From: Woeseiaceae bacterium
Lineage (GTDB): Bacteria; Pseudomonadota; Gammaproteobacteria; Steroidobacterales; Woeseiaceae
DNA length: 64,000 nt
Assembly (NCBI GenBank): GCA_028227395.1
Contig: JAOIZZ010000001.1
Location: 62,001 to 126,000, forward strand
Direction of reading: 5' to 3'
The position numbers were made by a program, and so were the translations under genes. Within the stretch, counting starts at the first letter, position 1. The number at the start of each line of letters is the position of its first letter. Below are positions 10,829 to 25,767 of the stretch, piece after piece. The notes under the pieces were generated by a model. It saw only the letters and a program-made list of their open reading frames with translations. It was not told the DNA's origin and ran no database searches.

Positions 10829-13621
10829 ATGAGCCTTTATTCAGAATACTTAGATGAGATTGCAAAGCGAAATAAGCTAGGGTTAGGCCCTCTGCCGATT
10901 GAGAATGCTGAGCTTACCTCTGAAATTATAGGACAAATAAAAGATTCTCATTGCAAGCACCGAGAAGAGTCTCTTAAGTTTTTTATCTATAACACTTTAC
11001 CTGGAACGACTGCTGCTGCAGGAGTGAAATCTCAGTTTTTAAAAGAAATAATTATTGGCAGTAGTGTTATTAAAGATATATCTATAACTTTCGCTTTTGA
11101 ACTTTTGTCTCACATGAAAGGTGGACCCTCTATTGAAGTCCTCCTTGATTTGGCTTTGGGTGATGATCCTTCTATCGCTTCGAATGCGGCTGAAGTTCTT
11201 AAAACGCAGGTATTTCTCTATGAGGCTGATACAGAAAAACTTGAGAAGGCTTATACAGCTGGAAATTTGATCGCTCTGGATATTCTTACAAGTTATTCTA
11301 AAGCTGAATTCTTTACTAAACTTCCCGATATAGAAACAGAGATTAAAATCGTAACGTATATTGCGGCTGAGGGAGATATTTCGACTGATTTACTGTCCCC
11401 TGGAAAGCAAGCTTATTCTCGTGCAGATAGAGAGTTGCACGGTAAGTGTATGATCTCTGAAGCTGCTCAAGTTGAGATTCAAGAACTACAAAAACAACAT
11501 CCCGATAAGAGGATAATGTTAATTGCTGAAAAAGGCACTATGGGTGTTGGATCCTCTAGGATGTCAGGAGTTAATAATGTTGCTTTGTGGACTGGCAAAC
11601 CAGCTAGTCCATATATACCTTTTGTAAATATCGCCCCAATTGTAGCTGGGACGAATGGAATTTCACCGATTTTTTTGACGACTGTTGATGTAACGGGCGG
11701 CATTGGTATCGATTTGAAGAATTGGACTAAAAAATCTGATGCTAATGGAAAATATATTTTAAACGATGACGGTAATCCAATCTTGGAACAAGTTTACTCT
11801 GTTGATACTGGCTCTTCATTGATTATTAATACAAAAGATAAAAAACTATACGGACATGATGGCTGCAAAGAGCTGGTAGATCTCAGTGCATCTTTTACTC
11901 CACAGAAGATCGAATTCATCAAAGCTGGCGGCTCTTATGCAATCGTTTTTGGAAAAAAACTTCAGAGCTTTGCCTGCAAGACTCTGGGGGTTGAGTTGAA
12001 ATCTGCCTATGCGCCATCCAAAGTTATCTCTCATGAAGGCCAAGGCCTAACGGCTGTAGAAAAAATCTTCAATAAAAACGTAGTTGGCGTAGCTTCGGGC
12101 ACTGTATTATTCTCTGGCTCAGATGCACGCGTGAAAGTGAATATCATTGGATCGCAGGATACGACGGGGTTGATGACGTCTCAAGAGCTTGAGTCAATGG
12201 CTGCCAAAGTTATTTCTCCAACTGTTGAAGGCGCTTATCAATCTGGCTGTCATACTGCTTCAGTTTGGGATGGTAAAGCACAAGCCAATACCCCAAAACT
12301 TATGAGGTTTATGCACAAGTTTGGTCTCATTACAGCGAGAGATCCAAAGGGTATTTACCACTCTATGACGGATGTTATTCATAAGGTTTTGAATGACATT
12401 ACAGTTGATGATTGGGCAATTATTATTGGGGGTGATTCTCATACACGAATGTCTAAAGGCGTAGCGTTTGGTGCTGATTCAGGAACTGTCGCTCTTGCTT
12501 TAGCGACAGGTGAAGCAACGATGACTATTCCTGATTCAGTTAAAGTAACTTTTAGAGGTAGTATGAAGGAGCATATGGATTTTCGTGACGTTGTGCATGC
12601 AACTCAGTCACAGATGTTGAGTCAATTTGGTGATAATGTCTTTCAGGGTCGAATAATTGAGGTTCATATCGGAACTTTATTAGCCGACCAAGCTTTCACC
12701 TTTACTGATTGGAGTGCCGAAATGAAGGCAAAGGCATCGATTTGCATCTCGGAAGACGATACCCTCATTGAGTCCCTTGGGATTGCCAAAGATCGTATTC
12801 AAGTTATGATAGATAAAGGTATGGAGAATGAAAGCCGGATGCTCCATGGTTTGATTGATATAGCTGACAAAAGAATTACAGAGATTAAATCGGGAGAAAA
12901 ACCAGCATTGACTCCTGATAAAAATGCTAAATATTTTGCAGAAGTTGTTATAGATTTGGATCAGATTGATGAACCTATGATTGCAGATCCAGATGTCAAT
13001 AATGTGGAAATATCTAAGAGATATACACATGACACAATAAGACCAATTTCATACTATGGAGCTGAGAAAAAAGTAGATTTAGGGTTTGTTGGTTCGTGCA
13101 TGGTTCATAAAGGTGATATGAAGATCGTTGCCCAAATACTTAAAAATCTGGAAAAAGATAAGGGAGAGGTTAAGTTTGAAGCTCCCTTAGTTGTTGCTGC
13201 TCCAACTTATAATATTATTGATGAATTAAAGGCGGAGGGTGATTGGGCTGTCTTACAAAAATACTCTGGATTTGAATTCGATGATAGTTCTCCAAAGATA
13301 TCTGCCCGAATTGAATACGAAAATATCTTGTATCTTGAGAGGCCCGGCTGCAACTTATGTATGGGGAATCAGGAAAAAGCGGTCAAAGGCGATACAGTTT
13401 TAGCTACTTCGACACGCCTTTTTCAAGGACGTGTTGTGGAAGATACTGAAGAGAAAAGAGGAGAATCTCTTTTAGCATCAACTCCGGTTGTTGTGCTTTC
13501 GGCGATCCTTGGTAGGACTCCAACTATCGATGAGTATAAAGCTGCCGTAAAGGGCATCAATTTGACTAAATTTTCTCCACCTAAAGAGAGGCTTGGTTCT
13601 TTGGCATCAGTTCATTTTTAG
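10829..13621 (+). CDS. acnB: Aconitate hydratase B, long Bacteroidetes-like form
   Basis: AcnB interconverts citrate and isocitrate in the TCA cycle through a 4Fe-4S cluster. Visible marks are the N-terminal HEAT-like region (FELLSHMKGGPSIEVLL), the swivel region with DLLSPGKQAYSRADRELHG, the GGDSHTRMSKGVAFGADSG active-site segment, and the cluster ligands in GSCMVHKGD (about Cys757) and CNLCMGNQ (about Cys841 and Cys844). At 930 residues it is longer than the roughly 865 of the enterobacterial form. Its N-terminus (LPGTTAAAGVKSQFLKEII) resembles what I remember of Bacteroidetes enzymes. Horizontal transfer is a plausible reading. Confidence 0.95.
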   Translation: MSLYSEYLDEIAKRNKLGLGPLPIENAELTSEIIGQIKDSHCKHREESLKFFIYNTLPGTTAAAGVKSQFLKEIIIGSSVIKDISITFAFELLSHMKGGPSIEVLLDLALGDDPSIASNAAEVLKTQVFLYEADTEKLEKAYTAGNLIALDILTSYSKAEFFTKLPDIETEIKIVTYIAAEGDISTDLLSPGKQAYSRADRELHGKCMISEAAQVEIQELQKQHPDKRIMLIAEKGTMGVGSSRMSGVNNVALWTGKPASPYIPFVNIAPIVAGTNGISPIFLTTVDVTGGIGIDLKNWTKKSDANGKYILNDDGNPILEQVYSVDTGSSLIINTKDKKLYGHDGCKELVDLSASFTPQKIEFIKAGGSYAIVFGKKLQSFACKTLGVELKSAYAPSKVISHEGQGLTAVEKIFNKNVVGVASGTVLFSGSDARVKVNIIGSQDTTGLMTSQELESMAAKVISPTVEGAYQSGCHTASVWDGKAQANTPKLMRFMHKFGLITARDPKGIYHSMTDVIHKVLNDITVDDWAIIIGGDSHTRMSKGVAFGADSGTVALALATGEATMTIPDSVKVTFRGSMKEHMDFRDVVHATQSQMLSQFGDNVFQGRIIEVHIGTLLADQAFTFTDWSAEMKAKASICISEDDTLIESLGIAKDRIQVMIDKGMENESRMLHGLIDIADKRITEIKSGEKPALTPDKNAKYFAEVVIDLDQIDEPMIADPDVNNVEISKRYTHDTIRPISYYGAEKKVDLGFVGSCMVHKGDMKIVAQILKNLEKDKGEVKFEAPLVVAAPTYNIIDELKAEGDWAVLQKYSGFEFDDSSPKISARIEYENILYLERPGCNLCMGNQEKAVKGDTVLATSTRLFQGRVVEDTEEKRGESLLASTPVVVLSAILGRTPTIDEYKAAVKGINLTKFSPPKERLGSLASVHF

Positions 13622-13817: not shown

Positions 13818-16244
13818 CTAGTTATAGTTTGGATCTTTGTTCTTTGGAATTATTAAATGAAAATTTTCTAATGAAAGGTTTTTTATCTGGTCAATCTCTA
13901 TTCCCCAGATATTCCATTTCAATTTCTTTGCTGTATCTAATTTTAGTATTGTCTTATAAGACTTATAATCAAAAGATATATCTGTAAAATAATTACTATT
14001 TAAGATCCATGAGATTCTTTCGTTTAATATGCGACATTTTTTAGATTTATTTATTTCTTTTCCTTGATTAACTTCATCTGCGCATTCTCTATCTATGTCT
14101 GGCATGTAGTAAGATGTTGAAAAACCGAGTTTTTTTATTGATTGTATGCAGTTTTCAGGTTTATTTTCTAGATCAAATAATGAGGTTGGAAATTCTATAA
14201 GAATATTTATATTTGTATTTTCTATTGTCGATATTTCTTTTCTTAAACTATTGCAATTTTTTATATCTTGTATATTTTTACCATCTATCCATAAAGAAAC
14301 TTTTCTTTGATTTACTAAATCTAGCATTTTGTCGAGCTTAAATTCCGTATTCTTAGCTGGTGGATGATATATATCTATATCGTTATTATTTACCACGACA
14401 TCAAATTCCAAGCAATTCGTAACAGATAGCCCTCTAATGGCTTTAGCGATTGAATTAGACCTGTGGTAACAAATTTTTGATTGAGTTTTTTGATCAAGAT
14501 GTCTTAATAAGTTGTAATGATCTGTGGCACTATCGGTACTATCAATCAGATTCATTTCTATATTTTTTTCAATTTTAGTTCTAACTATAGATTTACTATT
14601 TAATGTCTCAGAAAGATTTTTTATTTGATCGGTTTTAACTAATGATCTATTGGGTATTATTTCTCTAATAACTATAAATCTTTCCTGGCACCCTTCAGCA
14701 CCTACCGAACAACTTACAAGACTCTTGGATCTTCTTTCATCAAATATTTTAACACCCATTACTTCTGAAATTAAATCGGGTATTTGTGCCAATGTTGCAA
14801 ATTTATTACTACCTAGCCGTTCTTTGATTTTTTTAAATTCTTTTAAATCTTTTTTGATAGCTTGATCATTAAAGTAGACAAATAGTGGAACTTGACTCAT
14901 TTCTGTAACAAATTTAGATGAGTCATGTCCTCTTCTGGTATATACCGATTCGCCATGATCAGGAAAATATATAAATACCATTGGCCTATCGACTTCTTTT
15001 ATAAAATTAAGAGCTGTAACTATATTAGAGTCAATATAAGAAATTGCACTGTCATATGACTCAATCAAATTTATATCTTTAAATGGAATATTACCCATTA
15101 TAGCTTTGGCAGAAATACCTGTTAAAAAATTATCAACTTTGTTATGAAACTTGTCTGGGATAAATTCTTTATAGTCGCCATGACCAGCATATGAATGAAA
15201 AATGAATAGTTCTTTTTTATCTTCGATTGAAGGTGATGTTATTTTAAGTGCCTCTTTTAAGACTTCATGATCAAATCTTTTTAATTCTTTGTAAGGATCA
15301 ATGCTGCCCCACTTTATTACTGGTACTTTTAAAGTTTCTGCATCTCGAAAAACTAACGATAGAAAATCTTCGTGAACATGGTTTGCAATGATATGTGTAT
15401 TTATATCAACTTTATTAAGTAGAGGTATTATAGGGTATGAGGTACGTTGAAAAATTGACGTAATATTATTTTCTTTTGGGCTCTCTGTTTGAATACTAAA
15501 TGCATCAAGTAACGAAGGTATAGTGTGTGTGTGGGTTGACCAGACATTTGGAACCTTAATAAAGTTGGCGTTGTTATTTTTTATGAATGCTTTTAATTGT
15601 GGGTTTGTATTTCTGGGGTAACCATAAACTTGCATATGCATTGAGCTAGTACTTTCTCCAATATACAAAAAGATTGGCATACCAGAATCATCACTTCTAA
15701 CTGATAAGAATTCGTTATCTTTATTAAATGCTTCAGTAGTTACATTTAATTGATCTATTGATATTTCAAGTGTTACTCTTTTCTCTAATATAACTATCAA
15801 AGGCAGGCCTAAGATAAAAAAAACAATGGTCAATTTTGTAACTAAATTATAAAGATTAAAATGCTTTGTATTAATTACAAAAATATGGAGTAGCGTCCAA
15901 AAAATACCATAGATTAGAGATAACGCAGACCATAAAATAATATAATTTAAATCAGGTAAAGTTGACATTATATTGGTATAAAGCCAGTATATACCCTCTC
16001 TTGAATCAATAACTCTCAATTCTATAATTGAATCAATACTGGCATTTTGAATGCTTTCAATAAGGGGGTGCCCGATAAAAACCCAAGAAAATAACCCCAA
16101 AAAAGCGAAAATAAAAGCCCAAGTTCTCTTCTTAATGACTAATATTATCGCTAGATGTATAAAACCAATAACAGGAAGCCAAAAATTTATAGAAAGATAG
16201 ATCTTTTCTAAAAGAAAAACTAAAAAATCAAATGATAAATCCAT
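13818..16244 (-). CDS. Membrane phosphoethanolamine transferase-like protein with extra C-terminal PLC-like domain
   Basis: The 808-residue product has four or five N-terminal transmembrane segments (residues about 5-60 and 100-155) and then a sulfatase-fold periplasmic domain. The YIGESTSS segment (Thr199 as probable nucleophile), MQVYGYPRNTNP, and FPDHGESVYTRRGHDSS (Asp429, His430, His440) match enzymes such as CptA and OpgE, which move phosphoethanolamine onto lipopolysaccharide core or glucans. About 270 residues beyond the sulfatase domain form a second domain. There, HRSNSIAKA (594-602), LEFDVVV (612-618) and IYHPPAKN (625-632) resemble the H-N, E-x-D and HPP marks of menorin/FAM151 (DUF2181) or glycerophosphodiesterase-type barrels. 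The gene is alone and AT-rich. Confidence 0.8.
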   Translation of the reverse strand: MDLSFDFLVFLLEKIYLSINFWLPVIGFIHLAIILVIKKRTWAFIFAFLGLFSWVFIGHPLIESIQNASIDSIIELRVIDSREGIYWLYTNIMSTLPDLNYIILWSALSLIYGIFWTLLHIFVINTKHFNLYNLVTKLTIVFFILGLPLIVILEKRVTLEISIDQLNVTTEAFNKDNEFLSVRSDDSGMPIFLYIGESTSSMHMQVYGYPRNTNPQLKAFIKNNNANFIKVPNVWSTHTHTIPSLLDAFSIQTESPKENNITSIFQRTSYPIIPLLNKVDINTHIIANHVHEDFLSLVFRDAETLKVPVIKWGSIDPYKELKRFDHEVLKEALKITSPSIEDKKELFIFHSYAGHGDYKEFIPDKFHNKVDNFLTGISAKAIMGNIPFKDINLIESYDSAISYIDSNIVTALNFIKEVDRPMVFIYFPDHGESVYTRRGHDSSKFVTEMSQVPLFVYFNDQAIKKDLKEFKKIKERLGSNKFATLAQIPDLISEVMGVKIFDERRSKSLVSCSVGAEGCQERFIVIREIIPNRSLVKTDQIKNLSETLNSKSIVRTKIEKNIEMNLIDSTDSATDHYNLLRHLDQKTQSKICYHRSNSIAKAIRGLSVTNCLEFDVVVNNNDIDIYHPPAKNTEFKLDKMLDLVNQRKVSLWIDGKNIQDIKNCNSLRKEISTIENTNINILIEFPTSLFDLENKPENCIQSIKKLGFSTSYYMPDIDRECADEVNQGKEINKSKKCRILNERISWILNSNYFTDISFDYKSYKTILKLDTAKKLKWNIWGIEIDQIKNLSLENFHLIIPKNKDPNYN

Positions 16245-16510
16245 TATTTAACTTTAACATATTAATTATTACGAAAAATAGTAAGCTAGGCGTAAGGTTA
16301 AAGATTGTTATATTTACTCAAAGAGTGAATGAGTATATAGCAATAAAAAAAGATTTTTATCATCAAAAGGAAATATAGATGTCTCTCAGCTTATTTAAAG
16401 GGAGGGGCTCTGAAGCAAGTTTTGGTAGATAGGTTTATTGTTTTGGAATAGGAAATAATTCTAAAGGTATTTTTTTTTAAAAAGATTAGTGTAAAAAAAT
16501 GGAGAATAAA

Positions 16511-17386
16511 ATGAAACACTTAATAAATTTAGCTATTGCAGCAGGAGTTTTTATCTTTACTAAAACTTATGCAGAGTTGATCTCTTTTAATAGCATTCAG
16601 ATCTCTGAAACAAACCTACTAGAGCAAACGTTAGTTATTGCTTTTGTAATTCAATGGATTGCATTTATCCCAGCTTATTTGCTACAAACTGAAAAATTTT
16701 ATGATTTAACTGGTAGCTTGACTTATTTAAGTATTTTTATTTATTGTTTGATAGCAACTGAGAGTATCGAAAATTTAAATTTAAGTAACTTACTGGTCGC
16801 AGGAGCCATAATGTTATGGGCTGTAAGACTGGGGTCATTTTTATTTATGAGGATATCAAAGGATGGAAAAGACGAAAGATTTAATTCTATTAAAACATCT
16901 TTTTCTCGATTTTTTATGACGTGGACATTGCAAGGTATGTGGGTATTTATATGTTCCTCAGCTGCTTTGGTAGCAATTACTAGCCCAACCGGTGTAATGA
17001 TAAATAATTTATTTATCGTAGGATTTGTATTGTTTATTTTTGGATTTGTTATTGAGGTAATTGCAGATAACCAAAAGAATAAATTCCGATCTAAAGAAGA
17101 AAATAAAGGTTCGTTTATTAATGAAGGTTTGTGGGCCAGATCCAGGCATCCAAATTATTTTGGTGAAATTACTCTTTGGGCAGGTATAGCAATAATGGCT
17201 ATACCTACTTTCGTTGGAATGAATTTTTTAGCATTATTCTCACCCATTTTTACTTATTTATTGCTTAATCACGTCAGTGGGATAAGATTATTAGAGTTAA
17301 GAGGGCATGAAAAATGGGGGCATTTGGAAAATTATAATAGTTACAAAAAGAATACTCCTAAATTAATACCTAGAATTCTATCTTAA
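16511..17386 (+). CDS. DUF1295 membrane protein (steroid 5-alpha-reductase-like fold)
   Basis: The product of about 291 residues belongs to the DUF1295 family, integral membrane proteins related to steroid 5-alpha-reductases and isoprenylcysteine methyltransferases. About seven hydrophobic segments are visible. The family's active region is GLWARSRHPNYFGEITLWAG, and the tail is typical (HEKWGHLENYNSYKKNTP). The substrate is not known, but it is likely a lipid. I chose the ATG at 16511 because GGAG lies six bases before it; an ATG at 16499 has no such site. It leads a three-gene set with the next dehydrogenase and a DoxX-like protein. Confidence 0.85.
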   Translation: MKHLINLAIAAGVFIFTKTYAELISFNSIQISETNLLEQTLVIAFVIQWIAFIPAYLLQTEKFYDLTGSLTYLSIFIYCLIATESIENLNLSNLLVAGAIMLWAVRLGSFLFMRISKDGKDERFNSIKTSFSRFFMTWTLQGMWVFICSSAALVAITSPTGVMINNLFIVGFVLFIFGFVIEVIADNQKNKFRSKEENKGSFINEGLWARSRHPNYFGEITLWAGIAIMAIPTFVGMNFLALFSPIFTYLLLNHVSGIRLLELRGHEKWGHLENYNSYKKNTPKLIPRILS

Positions 17387-22893: not shown

Positions 22894-25020
22894 ATGAAAG
22901 CATTAAAATATGCGCTCATATTTATGAGCGTAATCAACGTAAATAACGTATTTGCACAAGAAGAAATTGACGAAATAATAGTGACTTCGTCATACATTGA
23001 ACAACAACTTAATACCATCCATAATCCAATTCATCTCTTAGATGGAGAAGACATTGCCAATATGGCGACCCAAAGTCTAGGTGAAATACTAGACAATCTG
23101 CTGGGTGTGTCTTCTGCAGATTACGGAGCAGGAGTAGGACAACCTATTATTCGAGGAATGTCTGGAAACCGTGTCAAAATAATGAGCAATGGCAGAGTAA
23201 ATAGAGATGTCGCTGGTCTTGGCGCAGATCATGTAAATGATATTGATTTAAATAACATACAACAAATTGAAGTTGTTAGAGGTCCTTCATCGATATTTTA
23301 TGCAAACGGTACCTCTGGTGGAATCATTAATGTTGTGGATAATACCATCGCAAGATCTGATTTTTTAGAGTCAGAATTGAGAATAGGAGCTGAAGCACAA
23401 ACAGTTAATAGTGGTAATTCTGGTGAATTTTCCTATCAAAATAATCTTGCTGGTTTGAATTTCAGTTTAGCTTATAAAGATTCTGGTTTTGAAAGGTATG
23501 AGATACCTTTTGGTGCAATAATTCATGAAGAAGAAGAGGAAGAGGAAGAGGAGGAGCATCATGAAGAGGAGAATCCAAAATATCTAGCTAATTCTGATTA
23601 TGAGACAAAATCACAGCGTTTTGGTGTTTCTAAAACTGGTGATTGGGGCTATTTTGGTGCTTCTGTAAGAGGAATTGAGAGTCTTTATGGTATTCCATTT
23701 CATGGCGAAGAACATGAAGAAGAGGAAGAAGGTGAGGAGCATGAAGAAGAGAGAATCTATGTTACAACTGATTCTGAGGTTGTTAATTTAGAGGGCTCAT
23801 ATATTTTTGATGATAGTGTACTGAAAAAAATTGACTACTATTATGCAGGTACAGAGTATTCCTTGATGGAGCAGCATGCTGAAGAAGCAGGTCATGAAGA
23901 AGAGGAAGAAGAGCATCATGAAGAAGGTCCTACCACATTCAAAAATGATGCAAAAGAATACGGCATGGTTGTTGATTTCTCCAATGATGCATTTTCACAA
24001 CGAGCAGTGCTAAATATGATTGATGAAGAGGTCACAGCAATGGGTCATGAAGCATTCATAAGGCCATCCGATAGTTCAGAATTCTCAATTGGTTATTATG
24101 TTAGTACTGACTTAGACATTTTCAATGTCGATCTTGCGATTAGATTGGATCGAATCAACAGGAAAGGCTCACTTGCTCATGATGAAGAGGAAGAGGAAGA
24201 GGAACATCATGACGAAGAGCACGAAGAGGAAGAAGTTGATTACTTTGATAAAGATTTTGAAAATAGTAGTCTAGCCATCAGTGTTAATAGGGATATCAAT
24301 GAATTCTTAAACGTAAGCATAGATCTTGCAAATGTTGAAAGAGCACCATCTGCGATAGAGCTTTTCATGAAAGGAGCTCACCTTGCGACAGGAAGATATG
24401 AAGTAGGTAACACGAACATTGTTACTGAAAGTTCACGTAATATCGACTTATCACTTGCTTATGACAGAAATGGATATTTTGGTAACGTTACTTATTTTAA
24501 AAATAATGTAGATGATTATATTTATCTTTTAGATAGTGCATCAAAGAAAAAGAAACTCACGGTTTCTAATTACAAACAAAAAGATGCACAGCTCAGTGGT
24601 TATGAGATTGAACTAGGTAAAATGTTTGAAATAAACGGTGGAAATCTAGAATTATCGATAGCCAGAGATTCAATATCTGGTGAATTTAATGATGGAACAA
24701 ATATTCCAAGAATGTCTCCAGAGAGAAATATTTATTCATTATCATATTCGCAAGATCAGGGCGGGCAATTCAATATGACCTTGAAAGATGTTAAAAAGCA
24801 GAATGACATAGCTCTTAGTGAGTCATCTACAAAAGGCTATAAATTGCTTGATATTAGATACAGCCAAAAGTTATCTCTAGAATCTGGAACAGAAATCTCT
24901 GCTTCTGTTTTTGGCCATAATTTACTTAATGAAGTTGCTAGGAATCATTCATCGTTTGTTAAAAATGAAGTTCCTTTAGCCGGTAAGAATATGGGCGTAA
25001 GTTTTAGCGTGAAATTCTAG
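22894..25020 (+). CDS. TonB-dependent outer-membrane receptor with Glu/His-rich loops (ZnuD-like)
   Basis: The 708-residue product starts with a signal peptide (cleaved after VFA), then a TonB box (EEIDEIIVTSS) and a plug domain (residues about 30-140) with GQPIIRGMSGNRVKIMSNG and VEVVRGPSSIFYANGTSGG-type segments. The barrel follows and ends with the usual aromatic residue, VSFSVKF. Four acidic tracts lie in predicted extracellular loops at residues about 209-228, 268-287, 325-346 and 428-449, each mostly Glu with His pairs. Neisserial ZnuD also has His-rich loops, so zinc is the likely ligand. It is downstream of the Zur-like site. Confidence 0.9.
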   Translation: MKALKYALIFMSVINVNNVFAQEEIDEIIVTSSYIEQQLNTIHNPIHLLDGEDIANMATQSLGEILDNLLGVSSADYGAGVGQPIIRGMSGNRVKIMSNGRVNRDVAGLGADHVNDIDLNNIQQIEVVRGPSSIFYANGTSGGIINVVDNTIARSDFLESELRIGAEAQTVNSGNSGEFSYQNNLAGLNFSLAYKDSGFERYEIPFGAIIHEEEEEEEEEEHHEEENPKYLANSDYETKSQRFGVSKTGDWGYFGASVRGIESLYGIPFHGEEHEEEEEGEEHEEERIYVTTDSEVVNLEGSYIFDDSVLKKIDYYYAGTEYSLMEQHAEEAGHEEEEEEHHEEGPTTFKNDAKEYGMVVDFSNDAFSQRAVLNMIDEEVTAMGHEAFIRPSDSSEFSIGYYVSTDLDIFNVDLAIRLDRINRKGSLAHDEEEEEEEHHDEEHEEEEVDYFDKDFENSSLAISVNRDINEFLNVSIDLANVERAPSAIELFMKGAHLATGRYEVGNTNIVTESSRNIDLSLAYDRNGYFGNVTYFKNNVDDYIYLLDSASKKKKLTVSNYKQKDAQLSGYEIELGKMFEINGGNLELSIARDSISGEFNDGTNIPRMSPERNIYSLSYSQDQGGQFNMTLKDVKKQNDIALSESSTKGYKLLDIRYSQKLSLESGTEISASVFGHNLLNEVARNHSSFVKNEVPLAGKNMGVSFSVKF

Positions 25021-25371: not shown

Positions 25372-25767
25372 ATGATTAAAGCACAATTAACAACTGACAG
25401 ATTTGCTATCTCATTATCACTGATATGCCTCATTCACTGTCTTTTCGCCCCCTCTTTTATTATTTTAACCTCCACTTTTCTTTCTTTTTCTTACGATAAT
25501 GAATTTATTCATAAAATGATTGTATTGTTAGCGGTTCCTATCAGTATTTCTGCCTTATCTATCGGGTATAGAAACCATAAAACTATTTCTTTTTTGCCTA
25601 TCGGTATTGCGGGATTACTAATACTTATTTTGGCAGTACTTTTAGGTGGGAATATACTGGGTGAATATGGAGAAAAAGGATTAACTTTATTGGGCTCAAT
25701 TTTTATTAGTTATTCACACTACAGAAACTATAAAATCTGTATCGAATCAGATTGTTCATGTCATTAA
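25372..25767 (+). CDS. MerC-domain membrane protein
   Basis: The 131-residue product has four transmembrane helices and the MerC signature CLIHCLFAP in the first helix. It ends with a Cys/His-rich tail, CIESDCSCH. MerC is a mercury transporter in mer operons, but many MerC-domain proteins have no mer genes nearby and are thought to handle zinc or other soft metals. The context of a Zur-like site and a Glu/His-rich receptor supports a zinc role. A GAGGATT site precedes the ATG. Confidence 0.8.
   Translation: MIKAQLTTDRFAISLSLICLIHCLFAPSFIILTSTFLSFSYDNEFIHKMIVLLAVPISISALSIGYRNHKTISFLPIGIAGLLILILAVLLGGNILGEYGEKGLTLLGSIFISYSHYRNYKICIESDCSCH

Follow-up and report, generated by a model that had tools for sequence, protein, structure and literature searches.

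A single gene in the window (the whole stretch of 64,000 nucleotides analyzed here) encodes a protein in which a CptA/EptC-like transferase is predicted to be joined to a menorin/GDPD-like phosphodiesterase domain. That the protein has this two-domain anatomy and that its two parts are functional partners appears highly probable. The whole explanation that we propose, namely an enzyme of the inner membrane that attaches a phospho-substituent to an envelope glycan and edits the resulting diester, is offered more tentatively, as a real possibility. Phosphoethanolamine marks on lipid A, on the LPS core and on glycans govern polymyxin resistance, surface charge and protein tethering, and the enzymes that add such marks are well known; a dedicated phosphoethanolamine editor within a transferase protein was not described in the open-access papers searched.

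Domain Architecture of the Fusion Protein

The gene is a frame of 808 codons without internal stops, and stops abound on the opposite, plus strand (Table 1). Four hydrophobic segments revealed by a Kyte-Doolittle scan (residues 8-26, 31-49, 101-126 and 129-147), all of them located before residue 150, precede a region that matched PF00884 with an E value of 5.2e-23 (82.3 bits versus a cut-off of 25). The best NCBIfam model was that of CptA (NF007933; residues 183-511, 5.4e-24), but because the protein reached 84.6 bits and missed the curated cut-off of 404 bits, it should be regarded as CptA-like rather than as CptA. Among solved structures the best match was EptC (PDB 5zzu, 3.6e-12), and E197 of the GES motif, T241 (equivalent to the EptC threonine) and D429-H430 of the DHG motif correspond in an alignment with EptC and its homologues. 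The N-terminal part is, as judged from these matches, a CptA/EptC-like transferase, in agreement with an earlier note on this DNA that had seen a CptA/OpgE-like enzyme there, and the transferred group would be phosphoethanolamine, as in the rest of the family. The protein shares the N-terminal helices, the sulfatase fold and the GES, Thr and DHG elements with CptA/EptC and EptA/MCR (PF00884; NF007933; 5zzu, 4kav), and it differs from ordinary CptA proteins in an extra C-terminal domain of ~220 residues and in a score far below the CptA cut-off.

Table 1. Features of the fusion gene and its product, in window coordinates
Feature	Position	Strand	Basis
Single gene, 808 aa, predicted CptA-type transferase plus menorin/GDPD-like phosphodiesterase domain	13818..16244	minus	ORF listing, translation
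N-terminal membrane region, residues 1-160	15765..16244	minus	Kyte-Doolittle scan
Predicted sulfatase-fold phosphoethanolamine transferase catalytic domain, residues 193-478	14811..15668	minus	PF00884, EptC 5zzu, alignment
Transferase end and linker, residues 479-587	14484..14810	minus	Position between the two domains
Predicted menorin/GDPD-like (PLC-superfamily) phosphodiesterase domain, residues 588-808 (core ~588-790)	13821..14483	minus	Leave-one-out HMM, homologue versus PF10223, hhalign
H594-R-S-N597, putative first catalytic motif (His near strand 1)	14454..14465	minus	Homologues HRTN, HRVD, HKAN, HRVN, HRTN; GDPD HRG..N
E613-F-D615, presumed metal-binding pair	14400..14408	minus	E in 8/8 family members, D in 7/8
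H627, putative second catalytic His (YHPP; GHD in most homologues)	14364..14366	minus	Invariant in 8/8
D654-G-K656 (WIDGKN; homologues WLDIKN), presumed further metal ligand and phosphate contact	14277..14285	minus	W, D and K in 8/8

When used alone, the tail of the protein gave no match in Pfam or NCBIfam and one chance-level PHROG only, and no close relatives of it were found in the genome and viral collections scanned. A class-wide search with this single sequence returned chance matches only, which were discarded on inspection, and matches of Klebsiella phages to residues 594-668 (E 0.3) span two genes and were also judged to be due to chance. Searching 398 Pseudomonadota genomes with the Menorin Pfam model gave nothing above its cut-off. 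The homologues were reached instead by examining full-length CptA-like proteins across the class (369 genomes), a few of which came from unusually long frames. A leave-one-out profile of the tails from three genomes (G855, G164 and G117), from which the window protein was omitted, recovered the window tail at E = 8e-12, whereas no shuffled tail out of 4800 did better than 0.16; the identity between the window tail and the homologous tails is only about 20-27%.

The trimmed G855 tail cleared the Pfam Menorin model (PF10223) with 26.5 bits versus a gathering score of 25 (5.3e-6), the scores for the G855 homologue spanning 24.6-26.5 bits overall, and a six-frame Menorin search of the G855 genome found the fused protein as the sole match. 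A stand-alone copy from G472 (see below) scored 14.7 bits, and the window tail gave no match. Comparison of an eight-member family profile with the GDPD profile by hhalign yielded a probability of 80.6 and an E value of 1.3e-5, and in this match HR..N, E-x-D and H line up. PF03009 (GDPD) matched neither the window tail nor its relatives, even with E values of up to 10 admitted; a true GDPD scored 6.6e-32 in one of these scans, and the family profile picked up a GDPD of genome G150 at 0.0012-0.002. The top seven matches of a six-sequence profile to all PDB sequences were GDPD or SMase D chains, each of them weak (E 0.05-0.7), and the best PDB match of the stand-alone G566 protein, 4q6x, was also weak (E 0.95). 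AlphaFold2 models were of too low confidence to be used (pLDDT of 43.5 for the tail plus G117 and of 39.2 for the full protein), and a TIM-barrel fold is predicted from sequence homology. FAM151/menorin has been placed in the PLC-like phosphodiesterase superfamily, with the spider structure 4q6x as best match (Findlay et al., PMC6965129).

By way of distant homologues of the same architecture, residues ~588-790 are thus assigned to a PLC-superfamily phosphodiesterase-like domain whose nearest Pfam family is Menorin, GDPD and spider phospholipase D being predicted as looser relatives. Of the menorin or GDPD likeness that the earlier note had read from the letters, the direct profile search of the window tail confirmed neither family, whereas the G855 homologue placed a domain of this superfamily in the same gene as the transferase, and the GDPD link held at the superfamily level.

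Recurrence of the Pairing in Other Bacteria

The fused architecture was also observed in G117, G164 and G855, and G240 and G352 have it with a decayed tail. Counted by group, the fusion is present in no fewer than three further groups of gammaproteobacteria. The G117 homologue (record PIVX01000052.1, 1253 aa from its ATG) has SFDYKSY and D-x-E-C-A in common with the window tail, and that of G164 is spread across two contigs with an exact overlap (RIHDTVLG...LTLHGQR). CptA-like matches were present in about 60 of 340 genomes of the class, and only four of the frames listed were longer than 750 aa (those of the window, G117, G240 and G352), all the others being of 708 aa or less; this count leaves out G164, which was concealed by the contig break. 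In a tree of the transferase parts, six fused and two plain proteins formed one clade (support 99/97), within which the exact place of the window protein is unsure owing to its very long branch. No phosphodiesterase gene was found near the two plain transferases of the clade.

Stand-alone copies of the C-terminal domain were found with tail-only queries, the first ones by searching 200 Pseudomonadota genomes with the family profile. Those of G472 and G566, two genomes of a single genus in another proteobacterial class, have one N-terminal membrane helix each, and the gene immediately downstream encodes an LtaS/MdoB-like member of the sulfatase superfamily (PF00884 1.5e-24), with a gap of 86 bp in G472 and an overlap of 4 bp in G566. 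A plasmid search with the G566 protein led to a copy in Acinetobacter baumannii that follows an annotated phosphoethanolamine transferase gene at a distance of 27 bp, and this copy led in turn to Vibrio sp. THAF191d, where the phosphodiesterase and transferase genes overlap by 22 nt. Every confident stand-alone copy has a sulfatase-type transferase as its immediate neighbor. Because the partners are of two subfamilies, CptA-like in some cases and LtaS/MdoB-like in others, and either gene may come first, the link was made or kept several times, and since the two parts are encoded by adjacent genes in other bacteria and lie in one protein here, they probably work together. Fusion in the window and neighboring genes elsewhere constitute a Rosetta-stone link, and the pairing, whose co-occurrence in other genomes the earlier note had raised as a check, is well supported. 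The A. baumannii pair (locus L093; plasmid NZ_CP053221.1, 9.6-kb) is flanked by a RelE/ParE-type toxin-antitoxin system and an IS5 transposase, and on account of this site it can move between strains.

With respect to gene context, the G117 gene is followed by genes for a glucose-1-phosphate cytidylyltransferase, a CDP-glucose dehydratase and a DegT-type protein (rfbFGH-type CDP-sugar genes, named by eye), and genes for glycosyltransferases and for one sulfotransferase lie on the G164 contigs (also named by eye); these two fused genes sit in polysaccharide clusters. This context bears on an alternative explanation, according to which the C-terminal domain, although a genuine phosphodiesterase, works on another pool (for instance glycerophosphodiesters or lysophospholipids released in the periplasm) for recycling or phosphate scavenging, and is fused solely for localization or co-expression. 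GDPDs are broad hydrolases of glycerophosphodiesters (PMC5095149) and the window gene lacks glycan neighbors, both of which speak for such a role; we nevertheless consider it unlikely, since a partnership with two transferase subfamilies in both gene orders fits a shared substrate better than localization, and two of the fused genes do lie in glycan clusters. A GDPD fusion of another kind was noticed in a glycan context in G150 (L087 2758-5421), where a true GDPD (PF03009) is fused to TPR-like repeats and encoded beside a glycosyltransferase gene.

Active-site Motifs and Their Decay

The window tail carries HRSNS (594-598), LEFDV (612-616) and YHPP (626-629), which include the HRSN, LEFDV and HPP motifs quoted in the earlier note, and in addition WIDGKN (652-657). 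The conserved positions are H594, N597, E613, D615, H627, D654 and K656, and the active-site set of the PLC superfamily (two His and E-x-D) is therefore present. The set is complete in G855 (HRTN, LEIDV, GHDP and WLDIKN), which belongs to the genus of G240, and the two His, E-x-D and D-x-K are kept in the window, G855, G164, G472, G566, Acinetobacter and Vibrio copies. In the G117 tail the first His is lost and E-x-N replaces E-x-D, and decay has gone further in the tails of G240 and G352. Because the active sites of these three are degraded, the domain may only bind in some species, and catalysis appears to be dispensable in some members.

It could be argued from this decay, and from the two transferase-only proteins of the same clade, that the C-terminal domain is a phosphodiesterase-derived binding or regulatory module that places a glycan or phospholipid for the transferase. 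Such a role is rather doubtful for the window protein and the other six copies with the intact set, because retention of the motifs at about 20-27% identity indicates selection for catalysis. The three loci with decayed or degraded versions of the domain that belong to one genus (L074 6586-9543, L073 7067-9793 and L076 111-2087, all CptA-like) suggest repeated loss of catalysis. In both genomes of that genus, a gene resembling REP-associated transposases was observed near the fused gene (L072 3798-4562 and L073 10623-11300).

Proposed Function and Comparison with Known Systems

From the anatomy, the homology, the conserved motifs and the recurring partnership, we infer hydrolase activity, its substrate and the order and direction of events as follows. 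A single inner-membrane protein would expose both catalytic parts to the periplasm. Its N-terminal domain would transfer a phosphoethanolamine-type group from a phospholipid to an envelope glycan or glycolipid, via a Thr-phosphate intermediate on a metal site, as family membership and the conserved residues suggest. The C-terminal domain, a putative PLC-superfamily phosphodiesterase of the menorin/GDPD type with two His and a metal coordinated by E-x-D and D, might then hydrolyze the phosphodiester made by the first domain or a neighboring one, so that the protein would fix the final phosphate pattern by installing groups and then trimming or removing them. Reversal of the same bond would be futile in one protein, unless specificity or timing differs. 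The earlier note had suggested that one protein might add and remove phospho-substituents on the same glycan or lipid; the fusion that it described was borne out and the co-occurrence that it had raised as a check was found, so that its interpretation is supported in part.

Spider and bacterial SMase D/phospholipase D-type enzymes of the GDPD fold (4q6x, 4rw3) were the top PDB profile matches, weak ones with E values of only 0.05-0.95. We take these enzymes to have the same H / E-x-D / H / D-x-K arrangement with similar spacing; they differ in being secreted and in lacking a transferase partner. GDPDs (PF03009; GlpQ, ttGDPD 2pz0) resemble the family at the superfamily level in the HR..N..E-x-D..H order of the hhalign match, but the family has a shorter spacing from the first His to E-x-D and H(R/K)xN in place of HRG..ENT, and PF03009 matches are absent. 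Menorin/FAM151 proteins (PF10223, formerly DUF2181) share the order H..N, E-x-D, H-P/D, D-x-K, but were described from animals (PMC6965129), without a transferase fusion there.

No characterized enzyme with a transferase-phosphodiesterase pairing was found in the open-access papers searched, and to that extent the corresponding statement of the earlier note holds; an adjacent pair has, however, been tabulated in the P49 cluster of Shewanella vesiculosa HM13, where the OpgE gene adjoins a gene for a PLC/GDPD-like inner-membrane protein (HM3344/HM3345; PMC6971210). In both cases a phosphoethanolamine transferase of the alkaline phosphatase superfamily is paired with a PLC/GDPD-like protein, there within a surface-glycolipid region, but HM3344 and HM3345 are separate genes, likened here by their published annotation. 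Disruption of putative surface-glycolipid genes, the phosphoethanolamine transferase gene included, frees P49 from vesicles and cells (PMC7281004). As to the chemistry, LyPls-PLD, a member of the GDPD family, releases ethanolamine or choline from a phosphodiester (PMC5095149), and phosphoethanolamine is removed from GlcNAc by sugar-specific phosphodiesterases of another superfamily (PMC10704324).

A further reading, which we regard as a long shot, would make the fusion a bacterial counterpart of GPI-anchor remodeling, in which phosphoethanolamine is placed on a protein-tethering surface glycolipid, as proposed for P49, and the menorin-like domain cuts or trims the bridge, releasing or maturing the anchor. 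If so, animal menorins would be relatives of an eraser of phosphoethanolamine-type glycan marks. Returning to the add-then-edit enzyme that we propose, the recurring pairing provides a substrate guess (glycan diesters of the phosphoethanolamine or phosphoglycerol type) for a domain nearest to menorin/FAM151, a family without a known substrate, and small, soluble proteins from bacteria would allow this guess to be put to the test.

Genomic Locus and Distribution Among Close Relatives

The fusion gene is flanked by what we take to be acnB (10829-13621, plus strand) and a DUF1295-type gene (16499-17386, plus strand), both named by eye, and no glycan genes were found near it in the window. Its GC content is 29.0% (27.0% in the tail), that of the window being 37.7%. 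The gene was absent from the other members of the genus (eight genomes), and in G003, the closest of them (GuaB 99.6% identical), the gap between acnB and the DUF1295 gene holds a gene of 144 aa instead, which indicates that the fusion is an accessory gene in a variable slot. This patchy occurrence and the AT-rich composition might point to merged or accidentally fused genes or to an assembly error, without functional meaning, a possibility that the earlier note had named and that is very improbable, and was rejected, because the same domain order occurs independently in unrelated families (G117, G164 and G855) and the pair exists as separate genes elsewhere. The gene in the G003 slot (L105 6805-7239, 144 aa) looks acetyltransferase-like by eye, at what appears to be a variable insertion site.

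Further along the window, a TonB-dependent receptor gene (22894-25020, plus strand) encodes long Glu/His-rich loops (EEEEEEEEHHEEE) and looks like an uptake receptor for zinc or another metal; it is followed by a gene for a small membrane protein that is MerC-like by eye (25372-25767, plus strand).
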